Shown piece after piece: positions 6,673 through 12,660 of a DNA stretch of 33,829 nucleotides. Each line of letters opens with the position of its first letter. Within the stretch, counting starts at the first letter, position 1. The DNA lies in assembly GCA_015152565.1 (NCBI GenBank), contig SUTT01000022.1:1-33829 (forward strand), in the 5' to 3' direction. Source of the DNA: Cyanobacteria bacterium SIG27 (GTDB lineage: Bacteria; Cyanobacteriota; Vampirovibrionia; Gastranaerophilales; Gastranaerophilaceae). The translations under genes were made by a program, and so were the position numbers. Under the pieces are notes generated by a model that searched no databases, had not been told where the DNA came from, and was given only the letters and a program-made list of their open reading frames with translations.

Positions 6673-6747
<75 letters not shown>

Positions 6748-6777: not shown

Positions 6778-6923
6778 GTTGCCATTCGGGATGCGACCTT
6801 TGGAGATAGTCTTGCAGGTTGAGAATTTCAGACTGCAAAACGAGAATTTTTCTTTTGAATTTGAACTGTCCAACACGTGAAATTAAAAAGTCGGACAGTG
6901 AAAGTAAAAAGCCGTTAATACTT

Positions 6924-7859
6924 TTAATTGTCGACAGGAAACCCCATTTTTATATATTTATTATCCTGTTTGTATGGCAAATAATATTCATTAAAATCTG
7001 TTTTTTCGGTATTATTGCAAATTTCAAATAAATTTAGGTGTAAAATTTCTAACATTTCTCCTATATTTTTCGAGATAATTATTAAATCGTCTATTGATAG
7101 AATGTTAAATTCTGCCCTTAATAAATTTTCTTCTTGATTTAATTGCAAAATAGATTTTGCAACAGCTGGAGTAAGATGAGGTATACAAATCAATTTTTTG
7201 CTCTTTGCGGTAATTTTAGAAATTTCAGTGTTGTCATAAATCATCAAATACCCTTCATTGGCTTCAATTGAAGATGGAGTTTTGCTTCCATAAGGGTTTA
7301 GGGCAACCGATAAACCATGTTTATATTGAGAATAAAACTTTTCGTATTTTAAATAAAAATCAACAAATTTCGCAAGATTTTCTTGTAAATTTAATATAGC
7401 TTTTTTATACATTAAAAATAATTCTTGTGCATTCTGCCAATCTTTATTTATATCAAAATAAGGAATTTGATATTCGCTACAAATGTTTTTCAAATCATTA
7501 ACATTAAATTTTTTAATATACTGATATACCTTTGTGGCATTATATCTAATAACATTTTTAACAAAATATTCAATGTTTTTTGACAATAACATCAAAGAAA
7601 ATAAATCTTCAATATATTGCATTGTTTCTGCAAGTGCAGAAAAGATTAATCCATTTTTAATTTCTTTATTAAGCGTAATTTCGCCAGTTGCATCATACGG
7701 TTGTTTAATATCTTCAATAATATTGGAATAAAAATTTGGCATATTTTTTAATATTTTGGAAATAGTTAAAACTTGAACATGTCTCCATTTTGGATACTGC
7801 GATGCTAAATAATTTTTTAATTGTTGTTTGCCGATTTTTAGACGATCTTTTTGATTCAT
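6924..7859 (-). CDS. Unknown protein, last gene of the restriction-modification operon
   Basis: A 311-residue protein that I do not recognise. It has no signal peptide or membrane segment and looks mainly helical, with many Lys, Asn and Ile and several amphipathic stretches. No nuclease, kinase or nucleotide-binding motif is evident. The start ATG at 7859 lies 7 bases after the stop of the preceding gene and lacks a clear Shine-Dalgarno, so translational coupling is likely. The position, co-directional and tight behind a membrane protein and a restriction-modification pair, suggests a defence-linked accessory or cargo gene. After its stop, to the tRNA terminator (6778-6923), I see no gene; an ACTGTCC/GGACAGT inverted repeat with a ~20-base loop lies there. 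Confidence 0.75.
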   Translation of the reverse strand: MNQKDRLKIGKQQLKNYLASQYPKWRHVQVLTISKILKNMPNFYSNIIEDIKQPYDATGEITLNKEIKNGLIFSALAETMQYIEDLFSLMLLSKNIEYFVKNVIRYNATKVYQYIKKFNVNDLKNICSEYQIPYFDINKDWQNAQELFLMYKKAILNLQENLAKFVDFYLKYEKFYSQYKHGLSVALNPYGSKTPSSIEANEGYLMIYDNTEISKITAKSKKLICIPHLTPAVAKSILQLNQEENLLRAEFNILSIDDLIIISKNIGEMLEILHLNLFEICNNTEKTDFNEYYLPYKQDNKYIKMGFPVDN

Positions 7860-7866
7860 TATAAAA

Positions 7867-8751
7867 CTATACTTTTGTATTTTGTGCTGTATTTATAACA
7901 GTTCCCATTTGTGACATTAACCCTTCAGCTTGTGCTGCACCAATTTTTTTATGCAAATAGTTTGCCCTATCTATAACAATATTATCTTGGAGATTCCGAA
8001 ACACTGAGGCTGTTTCTACATTGTTTAAATTCATTGTCGCATCTTTTTGGTATTCATCTTTAATAATAGTTATTTTTGCATTATTGGAAATTACATTTTT
8101 ACCTTCTATGACTTTAGTTTCTGGAATATTTTGAATTTTGCTTTCGAACCTATATATAATTCTTTCTTTTGCTTCTGTTGAATATGTAATTTGCACATCA
8201 AACCATAATTCGACTTGTCTGTTATTGTCGAGCTGTTCCCATAATTTCTTCCTTTGTTCATTATTATGAACTCTTAAGATAAACTCTTCGCCACCCCGTA
8301 ATAATTTAATATTGTTATTATATTGTTCTTCAATTATTGCATTTGATTCGGTTGTTAATTTAGTTTTTATATTAACATTTAACGCATGTAAGTTATTTCG
8401 ACTTTCATTTTTAACACAAAACAATCTGTGATTCTCTGTGTATAATTTTTCTGAATCATCATAAAAATCAAAACCGTCTTTAGGCGAAGAAAGCACTAAA
8501 ACTCGCTCCCTGTTGTTATATGTGATTAACTCATCTATTACATTGCCAAAACTACAAAATTTAAGATATGGCTTAATAATAACTAATTTATCTTTTTTAT
8601 ATTGATAATCTTTGTCTTTTTCATACGTTTCAATAGTTTTTTTATGAGTATAAATTACTGCAACTAAAGTCGCAGTGGCAGTTAATAGTCCTGAAAAAAT
8701 TGTGGCACCAAAAATCCACCAATCCGTAATAAAAATAGTCTGATTCACCAT
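7867..8751 (-). CDS. Membrane-anchored protein of unknown function, linked to restriction-modification
   Basis: A 294-residue protein with no family I recognise. One strong membrane helix lies at about residues 11-34, followed by a charged, probably coiled segment (YTHKKTIETYEKDKDYQYKK). The remainder is a soluble, mostly beta/mixed domain expected in the cytoplasm, because positive charges follow the helix. The start is well supported by AGGAGG 8 bases upstream of the ATG at 8751. It begins 18 bases after the methyltransferase stop and is followed 7 bases later by the 311-residue gene, so all four genes read as one operon. A membrane sensor or anchor paired with a soluble partner is a common layout in phage defence, but that role here is only inference. 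Confidence 0.75.
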   Translation of the reverse strand: MVNQTIFITDWWIFGATIFSGLLTATATLVAVIYTHKKTIETYEKDKDYQYKKDKLVIIKPYLKFCSFGNVIDELITYNNRERVLVLSSPKDGFDFYDDSEKLYTENHRLFCVKNESRNNLHALNVNIKTKLTTESNAIIEEQYNNNIKLLRGGEEFILRVHNNEQRKKLWEQLDNNRQVELWFDVQITYSTEAKERIIYRFESKIQNIPETKVIEGKNVISNNAKITIIKDEYQKDATMNLNNVETASVFRNLQDNIVIDRANYLHKKIGAAQAEGLMSQMGTVINTAQNTKV

Positions 8752-8769
8752 TTATGATACCTCCTTTGA

Positions 8770-9801
8770 CTAACTTGCCAAAACTAATTTAGCGTTATTT
8801 TGCAGGTTAATAACAGAACTTAAATCTTCCATTATTTTACTTGCTAATGCATAAGCCATATTTACAGGAACTGCATTTCCAACCATTTTGTAACCATTTA
8901 TTAGATTTGAATATTTAAATTCAAAATCATCAGGGAATGTCTGAATTCTTGCACATTCTCTCAATGATAATCTTCTGTATAAATGCTCTTGCCCTTTAAC
9001 AAATTCTCTTTTGTTTTGTTCTACAAAGGTCATTTTAGGCGCTTGTGGATGAATCGGTGCGTGTCGTCCACCTGCTTGTATTGTAAATGAAGGCTCATCC
9101 CAAGCTCTAACACGATTTCTTGACATAAATATTGTGGAAAAGCCACCTATCATATATTCATGATTTGGAACAATGCATTTTGAACCATTTGTATAATTTT
9201 TTTCTTTAGCAGGTAAAGCGGATTCTTTTAAATCCCAAATGGCATCCTTTAAAACTGGTTTATATTCTTGCATTTCAGGAAATTCAAAAGTTATATTTAA
9301 ATCGTTTCTGTACCCAACAAAAATTACACGTTTTCTATCTTGCGGTACATTGTAATTGTTTGCATTTATCAATCTAAAACTTAAATTATAGCCAGATTCT
9401 TTAAATAGTTTTTTAATATTAGATAAAGCTTCTGAATGTCTTTGTGCTAACATTCCTTCAACATTTTCAGCCAAGAAAAACAAAGGTTTTTTATCTCTTA
9501 AGATTCTAATAAATTCGTAGAATAATTGCCCCCTTGAGTCGTTTATTCCTCGCAAGGCACCTGCTTCACTCCAACTTTGACAGGGCGGACCGCCAATAAT
9601 TCCGATACAGTCTGGAATATCTTCAGATGGAACATTTCTAATGTTTCTTCTATCAAGAACAGTATTAGGGAAATTATGTTCAAATGTTTCCCAAATAGTT
9701 GAATCATATTCATTTGCCCATACAATATCAAACCCAGCTTTTTCGAAGCCTTTATCTAACCCCCCTGCACCTGAAAATAAACTTACAATTTTTTTAGTCA
9801 T
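8770..9801 (-). CDS. DNA (cytosine-5) methyltransferase, type II
   Basis: Transfers a methyl group from S-adenosylmethionine to carbon 5 of cytosine in the recognition site, protecting host DNA from the adjacent nuclease. It has 343 residues. The conserved motifs are in order: [11 protein letters not shown] (residues 9-18), [11 protein letters not shown] with catalytic Cys74, VI AENV (111-114), VIII QDRKRV, the target-recognition region from about 190 to 280, and [11 protein letters not shown]. Size and partner match the NgoPII system, whose methylase acts on GGCC; the specificity here is inferred from the nuclease family. The start overlaps the end of the nuclease gene by 8 bases. Confidence 0.95.
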
Positions 9802-10648
9802 AATAAAACTCCAAAAATTTGATATTTTCTAAATTAGCAGGATTATTTGGATTTTTAATTTGCAAACTTGAAATAAAAAATTTATTATTATCAACTAAAT
9901 TTTCTAAATTATTTCTATCAATTTCACAAAAAGAATTGTATTTTTCTTCTTTTATTACACAATAAAATGCAAAATTTGAATTTTCTTTTTTCTTTGGAAG
10001 ATAATCAAATACTTTTTTAGGTTGAGAAAGCAACCACATTCCTCGAACCCTTAAACTTGTAATACCAAGTGGATCAACTTTATTGATTCTCCCTAATTCA
10101 TTAGTTTCTGCTAATTCGATATTAGGAATAGAATGTAACCCCTCAGTAATAGTATTTTTTATTCGCTCATATATTTCCTTATCAGCAGCATAACAATCCC
10201 CATATACAAACCAAAGTTCTTTTAAACTGTTATCATCCGTGTGCCCTATGATGTAAATAATATCTTTTTCTGTCCATTGTTCACAGTTTTGGCAAGCACG
10301 ATTTATCATTCGACTATTTGAATACAATTTCGCTTTAGGATATGAACTATTTAACTGTAAATCAATCGAATTACTTTGCACTTTCTTAACTTCAATTGCA
10401 TCGCCATTTCTCAATATAATATCAGGTGGATTATTTTGATTTCCTGTATAGGAAAATACTTCATTATAAGTCTGTATTCTGCAATAGTCATTATTGCAAG
10501 ATAATGTATTTGCAAATAAATCTTTGATATATTTTTCTAAAGCATCGCCAACACCATTAGCACGATTTCGTCCTGAATAATGAGAAGTTAATTCGATTAC
10601 AGGGCTTTCTACTAGGTTTTTAATTGCGATTAAAATATTTGAACTCAC
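9794..10648 (-). CDS. Type II restriction endonuclease, NgoPII-like
   Basis: Cuts unmodified DNA; members of the NgoPII family recognise GGCC. It has 284 residues. The N-terminal part has the family-like segment [20 protein letters not shown]. The catalytic PD-(D/E)xK motif reads PPD (Asp76), then GDAIEVKK with Glu86 and Lys88. A Cys pair (CQNC) near residue 118 and the segment [10 protein letters not shown] also fit my memory of this family. The start is GTG at 10648, preceded by GGGGGA at good spacing. It is the first gene of the operon, with the nuclease before the methylase, so expression timing must be controlled somehow. No classical C-protein gene is present. Confidence 0.85.
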
Positions 10649-10669
10649 ACTTCCCCCTTGTATAAGTTA

Positions 10670-10707
10670 ATTATACATAAAAATAACCATTTTTACATGT
10701 TTGTAAA
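10670..10707 (-). promoter_or_regulatory. Promoter/operator of the restriction-modification operon
   Basis: On the minus strand a perfect TATAAT box (10675-10670) lies 21 bases before the nuclease GTG codon. An inverted repeat TTTACA-tgtt-TGTAAA (10692-10707) covers the position expected for the -35 element, which is itself poor. That layout suits a promoter controlled by a dimeric DNA-binding protein. The regulator is unknown. Confidence 0.45.
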
Positions 10708-10738
10708 GTTTAACTAAATTATTAACTTGACTTCCAAG

Positions 10739-10750
10739 CACTTGCAAGTG
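10739..10750. promoter_or_regulatory. 12-bp palindrome in the divergent promoter region
   Basis: CACTTGCAAGTG is a perfect palindrome. It begins 7 bases after a TTGACT (-35-like, near 10727) that points toward the plus-strand 71-residue gene. It could be an operator. No protein partner can be named. Confidence 0.35.
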
Positions 10751-10758
10751 ATGTATGT

Positions 10759-10780
10759 CACAACCTAAAAGGAGGTTGTG
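10759..10780 (+). promoter_or_regulatory. Hairpin containing the ribosome binding site
   Basis: CACAACCT (10759-10766) pairs perfectly with AGGTTGTG (10773-10780) around an AAAAGG loop. The AAGGAGG Shine-Dalgarno of the next gene spans the loop and the first bases of the 3' arm, one base before the ATG. It may tune translation. Because the arms are symmetrical it could also be a DNA operator. Confidence 0.45.
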
Positions 10781-10781
10781 T

Positions 10782-10997
10782 ATGGAAGAAAGATTTGTTA
10801 TCAAAAGAAAAGATTTTAAGAAACTAGAAAAATATGCTGAAAATATTTATAACACAGCAGTTGTGATTGATTATTTTTGCTCATCACAAAAGGAATACGA
10901 AGAACTATATAACTTAGCACCAATTGTGAAAAATCTTCGTCGTGATGCAGACCAAGTTAATGCGTTTTTTATAAATTATCCTGAAAGTATAGACTAA
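10782..10997 (+). CDS. Small unknown protein divergent from the restriction-modification operon
   Basis: A 71-residue, charged, probably helical protein (MEERFVIKRKDFKKLEKYAE at the start) with no recognised family. I chose the ATG at 10782 because AAGGAGG lies 6 bases upstream; a longer frame from 10755 would translate through the hairpin. It is transcribed away from the nuclease gene and shares about 130 bases of intergenic DNA with it, the place where control proteins of restriction systems often sit. However, I see no helix-turn-helix pattern like that of C proteins, so a regulatory role is only a possibility. Confidence 0.6.
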   Translation: MEERFVIKRKDFKKLEKYAENIYNTAVVIDYFCSSQKEYEELYNLAPIVKNLRRDADQVNAFFINYPESID

Positions 10998-11291
10998 TAA
11001 TTTTTAATTTTGAATTACATTTTGAATAAAATTTTCAAATAAATTACATTCAATAAATTACATTGGTGGAATAATTATTCCTAAATTTACTTAATTTTGT
11101 AATTTTAACAAAATTAGGTTCAAAGTCTTTCTGCAACTCATTTTCAACCAGATTTATCCAAATGTAATTAAAGCTCAATAAATTACATTTGATGTAATTT
11201 ATTCAAAACTTCCCTCTAGGTCGGAAGTTGTTATTAGGAGAGGGAAGAAAGTATTTCCCTTGAAGTGGGAAGTAAAAAACTAATGCAATTG

Positions 11292-11323
11292 AAAATGTAA
11301 TCGAAAATTTTCGATTACATTTT
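11292..11323. repeat. Perfect 32-bp palindrome
   Basis: The left half AAAATGTAATCGAAAA is followed directly by its exact complement, with no loop and no mismatch. There is no T-run directly after it, so it is a poor terminator. It is more like a protein-binding or cruciform site. Confidence 0.9.
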
Positions 11324-11352
11324 ATAAAAACACTAAAATTTAAATATATAAA

Positions 11353-11407
11353 GGACATTTGAGGGACAAAGCTAGGACAAGCAAAGGACACAAAACGGAC
11401 ATTTCGT
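11353..11407 (+). repeat. Five GGACA repeats at exact 11-bp spacing
   Basis: GGACA starts at 11353, 11364, 11375, 11386 and 11397, each exactly 11 bases apart, about one DNA helical turn. The six bases between copies differ, so this is not a simple tandem duplication, and a period of 11 is incompatible with a coding repeat. The last unit lies in AAACGGACATTT (11393-11404), which has an exact inverted copy at 11504-11515. The arrangement resembles iterons or a multi-site protein binding array. Confidence 0.8.
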
Positions 11408-11619
11408 CCATCACTACTTTGTCCAACCAAAACCGAGGGAAGCAGCCTCAATCTCAAATACCAAGCCAATCTCACTTCAAAATTTCAATTACATATTTTT
11501 CAAAAATGTCCGTTTATCTATACAGAAAAAGACATTTGGTTTTTAGTTTATTTTTTTTAAATTATAAAAAAATAATTAAGAAATTCCCAAAAATAAAATT
11601 TTAGTTTTAATATAATATT

Positions 11620-12660
11620 ATGAAATACAAAGACTATTATGAAATACTAGGCGTTTCAAGAAGCGCTTCGCAACAAGAAATTAAATCATCATATAGAAAA
11701 TTGGCTCGCAAATATCATCCAGATGTTAATAAAACATCTGATGCACAAGCGAAATTTAAAGATATAAACGAAGCTTATGAAGTTTTAGGAGATGAAGCCA
11801 AAAGAAAAAGATACGACCAGCTTGGCTCTGCTTGGTCATCTGGTGCAGATTTTAATGTTCCTCCCGGATTTGAGGGCTTTAATTTTTCAAATTTTGGCGG
11901 TGGGCAATCAACCGGCGGTTTTTCAGACTTTTTCTCTGCAATTTTTGGGGACATGATGTCGTCTCAAATGGGCGGCAGTTCAAGAGGATTTAATCAAGGC
12001 TTTTCATCCGGAGGCTTTGGAGATTTTTCACAATTTAACCAAGGTAACCAAAGAAGAAATCAAGCGCAACAGCAAAAAGATGAATCTCTTGATATTATTC
12101 AAAATGTTGTTTTAACACTTGAAGATGTTGTTAATTCGCCTAAAAAAACTGTTACAATAACAGCTTATCAACAGTGCAGCGTATGCCATGGCTCTCGTCA
12201 GGGTTTTTGTTCAAATTGTTCTGGAACAGGTATTGAAAAAATAACCAAGAATATAACTTTTCAAGTACCAAAAGCCGTTAAACAAGGGCAAAAAATTCGT
12301 TTAAAAGGTGAAGGCAAAAAAGACGCCTATGGAAGAGTTGGAGATGTTTATCTGACGGTTAAAATTGAAGATAGTGAATATGAAATTAACGGTACAACTC
12401 TAATTAAAGATGTTGAGCTTTTGCCATACGAGGCGGCTTTGGGTTGTGAAAAACAAATTCAAACACCATCCGGAAAAGTTAAAATCAAGTTTCCTCCTAA
12501 AATGTCAACCGGCAAAAAGCTTCGTTTAAAAGAAATGGGTTTACCATCAAAAGATAATAAAAAAGGTGATTTTGAGGCAAGAGTTAAAATCATTATTCCA
12601 TCTGAATTATCAAAAGAAGCAATTGAGTTGTATGAAAAACTCAAAAAAATTAATTCTTAA
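11620..12660 (+). CDS. DnaJ-like co-chaperone with a reduced zinc-binding domain
   Basis: A J-domain protein that stimulates the ATPase of Hsp70 (DnaK) and delivers substrates to it; 346 residues. The J domain covers about residues 1-70 with HPD at 33-35. A long Gly/Phe/Ser/Gln-rich linker follows (about 80-160). A small Cys cluster has CSVC (186, 189) and CSNC (197, 200), and two beta-sandwich substrate domains run to the C-terminus. Classical DnaJ has four CxxCxGxG repeats binding two zinc ions; CbpA has none. This protein has two and so is intermediate. No dnaK or grpE is adjacent. No Shine-Dalgarno precedes the ATG; a TATAAT at 11611-11616 lies only 3 bases before it. Confidence 0.9.

Follow-up and report, generated by a model that had tools for sequence, protein, structure and literature searches.

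Among the closest described counterparts of the array analysed here are the iterons within phage replisome-organiser, DnaD-like and O-like genes, in which a short motif recurs at 11-bp spacing between diverged spacers, often beside an AT-rich flank, and whose motif varies between phages while the spacing stays constant. Iteron plasmid origins (Rep_3, RepA_N) likewise consist of direct repeats adjoining AT-rich DNA, in units of about 20 bp. The attP arm-type and RDF arrays (Xis-like, wHTH; RdfS/IntS of ICEMlSymR7A; PMC11963761) include the arm-type sites of attP, and the winged-helix protein BldC is described as binding cooperatively and head-to-tail at intervals of about one turn, a mode that has been proposed for RdfS (PMC11963761). 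PLE (PMC8263062) and PICMI (PMC10803314), both compact islands, restrict phages or make use of them; the origin of PLE is non-coding and consists of ~30-bp semi-palindromic iterons, and PLE also encodes RepA and an integrase (PMC8263062), and the P4-like satellite defence hotspots and hitcher elements (PMC9122126, PMC11389934) carry interchangeable anti-phage cargo.

The locus described here lies in a window of 33,829 nucleotides (the whole stretch that was analysed) from Cyanobacteria bacterium SIG27. Unlike the phage iterons, its array is non-coding, lies where a defence island ends and is neither inside an initiator ORF nor accompanied by an initiator gene; unlike the plasmid origins, it is built of 11-bp units, is chromosomal and has no Rep gene. 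With the attP-type arrays it may share cooperative binding about one turn apart, and its two ends, if joined, would bear sites on both sides, but neither a recombinase gene nor a core direct repeat was found with it. Insertion next to a tRNA gene, as in tyrosine-integrase genomic islands, is encountered here, whereas attL/attR-like direct repeats are not; as to possible arm-type sites, GGACA occurs at both ends, with weak end-to-end similarity. As regards the hallmarks of Tn7-like transposons, no obvious inverted repeats were seen at the ends and no transposase among the cargo in the window. The RepA, integrase and ~30-bp semi-palindromes of PLE were all absent from the window island, and the P4-like satellites, which it resembles in its cargo and in an assumed dependence on a helper, differ in their integrase and other core genes and in their unrelated ends.

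The array and its island in the window

On sequence comparison, the array belongs to a conserved right-end (RE) module of ~200 bp in what appears to be a mobile defence island; this island spans ~4.7 kb (about 6803-11522), and its left end (LE) abuts a tRNA-Met gene. Its features are these:

6673-6747, + strand: tRNA-Met (cat), neighbour of the island
6803-6935, no strand: LE, from GTCTTGCAGGTTGAGAATTTC onward, with degenerate 22-bp periodicity and TGTCC and GGACA inside (sequence comparison)
6924-8751, - strand: two cargo ORFs (7867-8751 and 6924-7859) without family match in PADLOC, Pfam, PHROGs or NCBIfam
8770-9801, - strand: C5-cytosine DNA methyltransferase, cargo (PF00145, E 2e-95; TIGR00675)
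9794-10648, - strand: NgoPII-type restriction endonuclease, cargo (PF09521, E 4e-116; PADLOC REase_II)
10782-10997, + strand: small ORF of ~71 aa, defence-island associated, with homologues in 201/383 family genomes
11030-11317, no strand: outer RE segment with ATTACATT repeats and a 32-bp palindrome, only in some copies
11318-11522, no strand: RE core module, ~200 bp, conserved in seven loci (alignment A3)
11318-11352, no strand: AT-rich stretch adjoining the array
11353-11401, + strand: five GGACA units in exact 11-bp phase (direct reading; 0/200 shuffles)
11420-11424, - strand: inverted GGACA (TTTGTCC), retained in other RE copies, that of G203 among them
11507-11511, - strand: inverted GGACA within the terminal motif AAATGTCCGTTTATCTATA

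The preliminary description of this DNA, namely five GGACA units at exactly 11 bp with unrelated spacers, next to AT-rich DNA, with a 12-bp inverted copy about 100 bases on, the whole some 200 bases before a dnaJ-like gene, is accurate in each of these respects. The units start at 11353, 11364, 11375, 11386 and 11397 of the + strand by direct reading, and the spacers have a mean pairwise identity of 0.19. As GGACA is not enriched in the window (26 occurrences against 28.5 expected), it is the arrangement that is unusual: no other pentamer of the window forms at least five units at a constant period between 8 and 30 bp, and such arrays were absent from all 200 dinucleotide-preserving shuffles. 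A search for the triple-unit pattern returned no second GGACA array in the 1.84-Mb assembly, and the pattern is absent from the 57 related genomes scanned. The DNA immediately to the left of the array is almost entirely A/T and may be an unwinding element. The arms of the inverted pair, AAACGGACATTT (11393-11404) and AAATGTCCGTTT (11504-11515), are separated by 99 bp, and the inverted GGACA at 11507-11511 falls inside this pair.

Two readings suggested by the same description did not survive comparison. A plasmid origin is unsupported, given the absence of any plasmid match and of a Rep gene; Rep, initiator, integrase, recombinase and packaging genes all went unrecognised among the island's ORFs in Pfam, PHROGs and NCBIfam. 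The array ends 219 bp short of the dnaJ start, yet in a DNA search of the genus the 90 bp ahead of dnaJ proved common to the whole genus and the array region did not, and in G002 dnaJ is immediately preceded by ruvB and lacks the array, so that regulation of dnaJ is likewise unsupported. Homology of the window to this ruvB-dnaJ junction picks up at the final bases of ruvB. At 11545-11620 the right flank of the island meets dnaJ at the end of a missing ruvB, and the position of tRNA-Met beside xerC was not seen in relatives; a rearrangement is likely. The split rpoC of the window and the Candidatus Gastranaerophilales label of matching contigs assign the host to this lineage of non-photosynthetic gut cyanobacteria. 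Empty sites could not be read at the tRNA-Ser and xerC loci, whose flanks are too rearranged between species.

LE and RE emerged from local comparison as two blocks that recur together. No direct repeat of at least 9 bp was found around the window island, and two other islands yielded only AT-rich 9-10-mers; in the absence of a convincing repeat, no recombination core was identified.

Ends and cargo in other genomes

The RE core with a GGACA array is present in seven copies (the window, G002:C8, L466, SIG32/G290, L470, RGIG2002/G352 and G203), which align with a mean column identity of 86%. Individual units are mutated in four of the seven, and the 11-bp spacing is kept in all seven without a single indel within the array, a constancy that, since the copies are related, is weaker evidence than that from independent motif classes. 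In the homologous but more diverged RE of G144, the equivalent position bears an 11-bp array whose motif is a different one. Drifted spacing in relatives, which the preliminary description had named as grounds against iteron-like sites that are in helical phase and bind a protein cooperatively, was therefore not seen, 11 bp being kept even where the motif is another one, and the invariant spacing argues for such sites. A second RE subtype (G002:C43 and two copies in G073) retains the terminus and lacks the 11-bp array, which may consequently be dispensable for end recognition. Two further observations concern the architecture of the ends: a perfect 32-bp palindrome, AAAATGTAATCGAAAATTTTCGATTACATTTT, occupies 11292-11323 among the scattered repeats of the outer segment, and at L473/G352 an LE-like sequence directly follows an RE, suggesting tandem stacking of islands.

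The RE copies of G203, G352 and G290, which belong to other genera of the family, are 89-93% identical to those of the window and SIG32, whereas rpoB of G203 and G352 is 79-81% identical to that of the window (no rpoB match was found in G290), thereby indicating that the RE module moves horizontally. Between G203 and G000, the amino acid identity is 93% for the type III Res protein and 97% for the small ORF. Two RE matches, L466 and L470, come from contigs assigned to Helicobacteraceae and Clostridia, respectively, assignments that may reflect mis-binning or chimeric contigs, and L466 may be close to a contig end. The LEs carry GGACA/TGTCC or close variants, some spaced 22 bp apart, a period that is weak in some copies, and their sequence similarity to the REs is marginal at best (p 0.04-0.9). 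Each of the LEs that were found and checked lies roughly 57-205 bp downstream of a tRNA-Met, Ser, His or Gln gene.

Beside further tRNA genes, and in further genera of this family, identical end types flank differing defence cargo: type I/IIG restriction in G002:C8, a type I-like system in G002:C43, a type IIG enzyme on the SIG32 contig, and a type III system together with a TIR protein in G203. An Mrr nuclease and AbiH are bounded by an LE and an outer RE in G001:C1, and three loci have an LE match only, ahead of a type III system (G000:C42), an island with Shedu (G003:C7) and a GmrSD locus (G073:C13); at L470 the RE core is present and cargo is absent. By their gene content and surroundings, these islands are sets of swappable anti-phage genes beside tRNA genes in gut-dwelling relatives of cyanobacteria. 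The restriction-modification genes that had been remarked upon as neighbours of the array are thus relevant as interchangeable cargo, but not as genes under its regulation. Just within one LE lies a truncated serine recombinase (L461:2992-3411; PF00239, DNA-invertase-like), the sole recombinase observed in these islands.

A small gene beside arrays of other motifs

Relatives of the small ORF are spread over 31/41 genera of the family, with at most nine per genome; none was found in IMG/VR, and the ORF has no family match in Pfam, PHROGs, NCBIfam or PADLOC. Its product is predicted to be all-helical, with moderate confidence (mean pLDDT 76). Downstream of this gene an 11-bp periodicity was detected at p < 0.02 in 20/24 loci, a figure that overstates the number of independent cases since several of these loci are close homologues, and upstream of it in 0/24; the control periods of 9, 10, 12 and 13 bp were detected downstream in 1/24, 3/24, 6/24 and 1/24 loci, respectively. 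The arrays mostly comprise five units of motifs such as TTTTAAA, TTTAAAC and TTCAAA, and in several of these other-motif classes they come directly after the small ORF, the window array lying ~350 bp beyond it. Among the genes upstream of the small ORF are those for the R, M and S subunits of type I systems, for Dcm together with Vsr, and for a reverse transcriptase (PF00078; L504:1787-3211, - strand), the last possibly a defence gene of the retron or DRT type.

Readings of the array

The array is probably the docking site of a protein that comes from elsewhere and either moves or copies the island. We rank first, with a probability of roughly 0.4, the reading in which it forms the core of a cis-acting RE site in a mobile defence island that is tRNA-linked and non-autonomous. 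A single kind of DNA-binding protein would occupy the five units with several protomers, lined up along one helical face, and since the window island encodes no recognisable recombinase or initiator, this protein would have to be provided in trans. The array, the inverted GGACA close to the RE terminus and the sites in the LE would jointly assemble a complex that may excise, insert or otherwise mobilise the island with whatever defence cargo it encloses. The occurrence of GGACA/TGTCC in LEs and RE, along with the 22-bp period of some LEs, favours one protein acting at both ends, and hence a recombination or mobilisation complex. The lack of a core repeat, the marginal LE-RE similarity and the second RE subtype, which has no array, count against it, and neither a circular junction nor excision or binding was seen.

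An alternative that we place below the mobilisation end, and regard as somewhat less likely, takes the iterons and the adjoining AT-rich DNA as a replication origin used in trans by the replisome organiser of a helper phage, the island being a phage satellite of minimal size whose replication and spread depend on an initiator borrowed from the helper. Defence cargo and a want of own genes are consistent with satellites, the AT-rich flank favours an origin, and phages do possess comparable arrays: many in IMG/VR have 11-bp GGACA arrays with diverged spacers, raw match counts being misleading in that 10-bp and scrambled-motif scans likewise give ~120 rows, and these arrays commonly lie ~340-365 nt into ORFs of 220-340 aa. 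In a set of 49 ORFs that contain these arrays, up to 18 match a single DnaD-like loader family, and others match O-like, replication-initiation and replisome-organiser families. A scan with the scrambled motif ACAGG at 11 bp recovered the same gene class (phrog_2514 in 21/52), so that this set, containing initiator genes, is unusable as a null and 11-bp arrays of varied motif appear to be general in such initiator genes. Within the genus itself, a prophage initiator (L474, G026:C41) has an internal 11-bp array of NGACAA and a weaker initiator match (L475, G023:C32) a similar pattern of GCGAAA, both read by eye. Against a helper origin, however, the 28 genomes of the genus have no GGACA array outside the island, the RE is unmatched in IMG/VR and phage records, these searches yielded no helper bearing the motif, and the window island has no initiator, integrase or packaging gene.

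The remaining explanations seem to us less probable still. Direct repeats of 11 bp are typical of the operators of some response regulators, and a small gene adjoins the array, which might thus be an operator for a regulator of neighbouring genes, such as one of the PhoB kind; this is improbable given that the array is retained with unrelated cargo, in either orientation and in the cargo-free L470, that the nearest cargo promoter in the window, that of the restriction gene, is ~700 bp away, and that the dnaJ of relatives has no array. We attach very little weight to an action as RNA, either as a 3' element of the small-ORF transcript or as a sponge of repeated GGA: the arrays that directly follow the small ORF and the folding of the + strand would agree with it, but the folding score is weak (z -2.4 against shuffles, a mild effect), the distance from the small ORF in the window is considerable, Rfam matches in the window are limited to two tRNAs, and a spacing of one DNA turn suits DNA binding. 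Equally improbable is that the array is what remains, without function, of a phage initiator gene that contained an origin, for although the forward translation of the array resembles initiator linkers, the open frame is not conserved, no initiator N-terminus lies upstream, and the copies in other genera have undergone no decay of spacing.

More broadly, and tentatively, the mobilisation-end reading may extend to a class of defence cassettes in Gastranaerophilales that depend on a helper and have not been described before, defined by an end module with a five-unit 11-bp array and by the small conserved gene. In this class the motif (GGACA, TTTTAAA, TTTAAAC, TTCAAA and others) would diversify while the geometry stays fixed, from which it would follow that every motif class is served by a trans-acting mobilisation protein of its own. 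If so, the arrays would offer a sequence handle on the spread of anti-phage genes between genomes without a recombinase of their own, a searchable landing site of fixed geometry in which motif changes predict which helper moves which cassette, and a common geometric rule, one helical turn per protomer, for phage replication initiators and island ends. A different spacing was met in L153, L163, L170 and similar IMG/VR loci, where GGACA arrays at 10-bp spacing are accompanied by a second, inverted array 60-70 bp away, several of them inside long ORFs.
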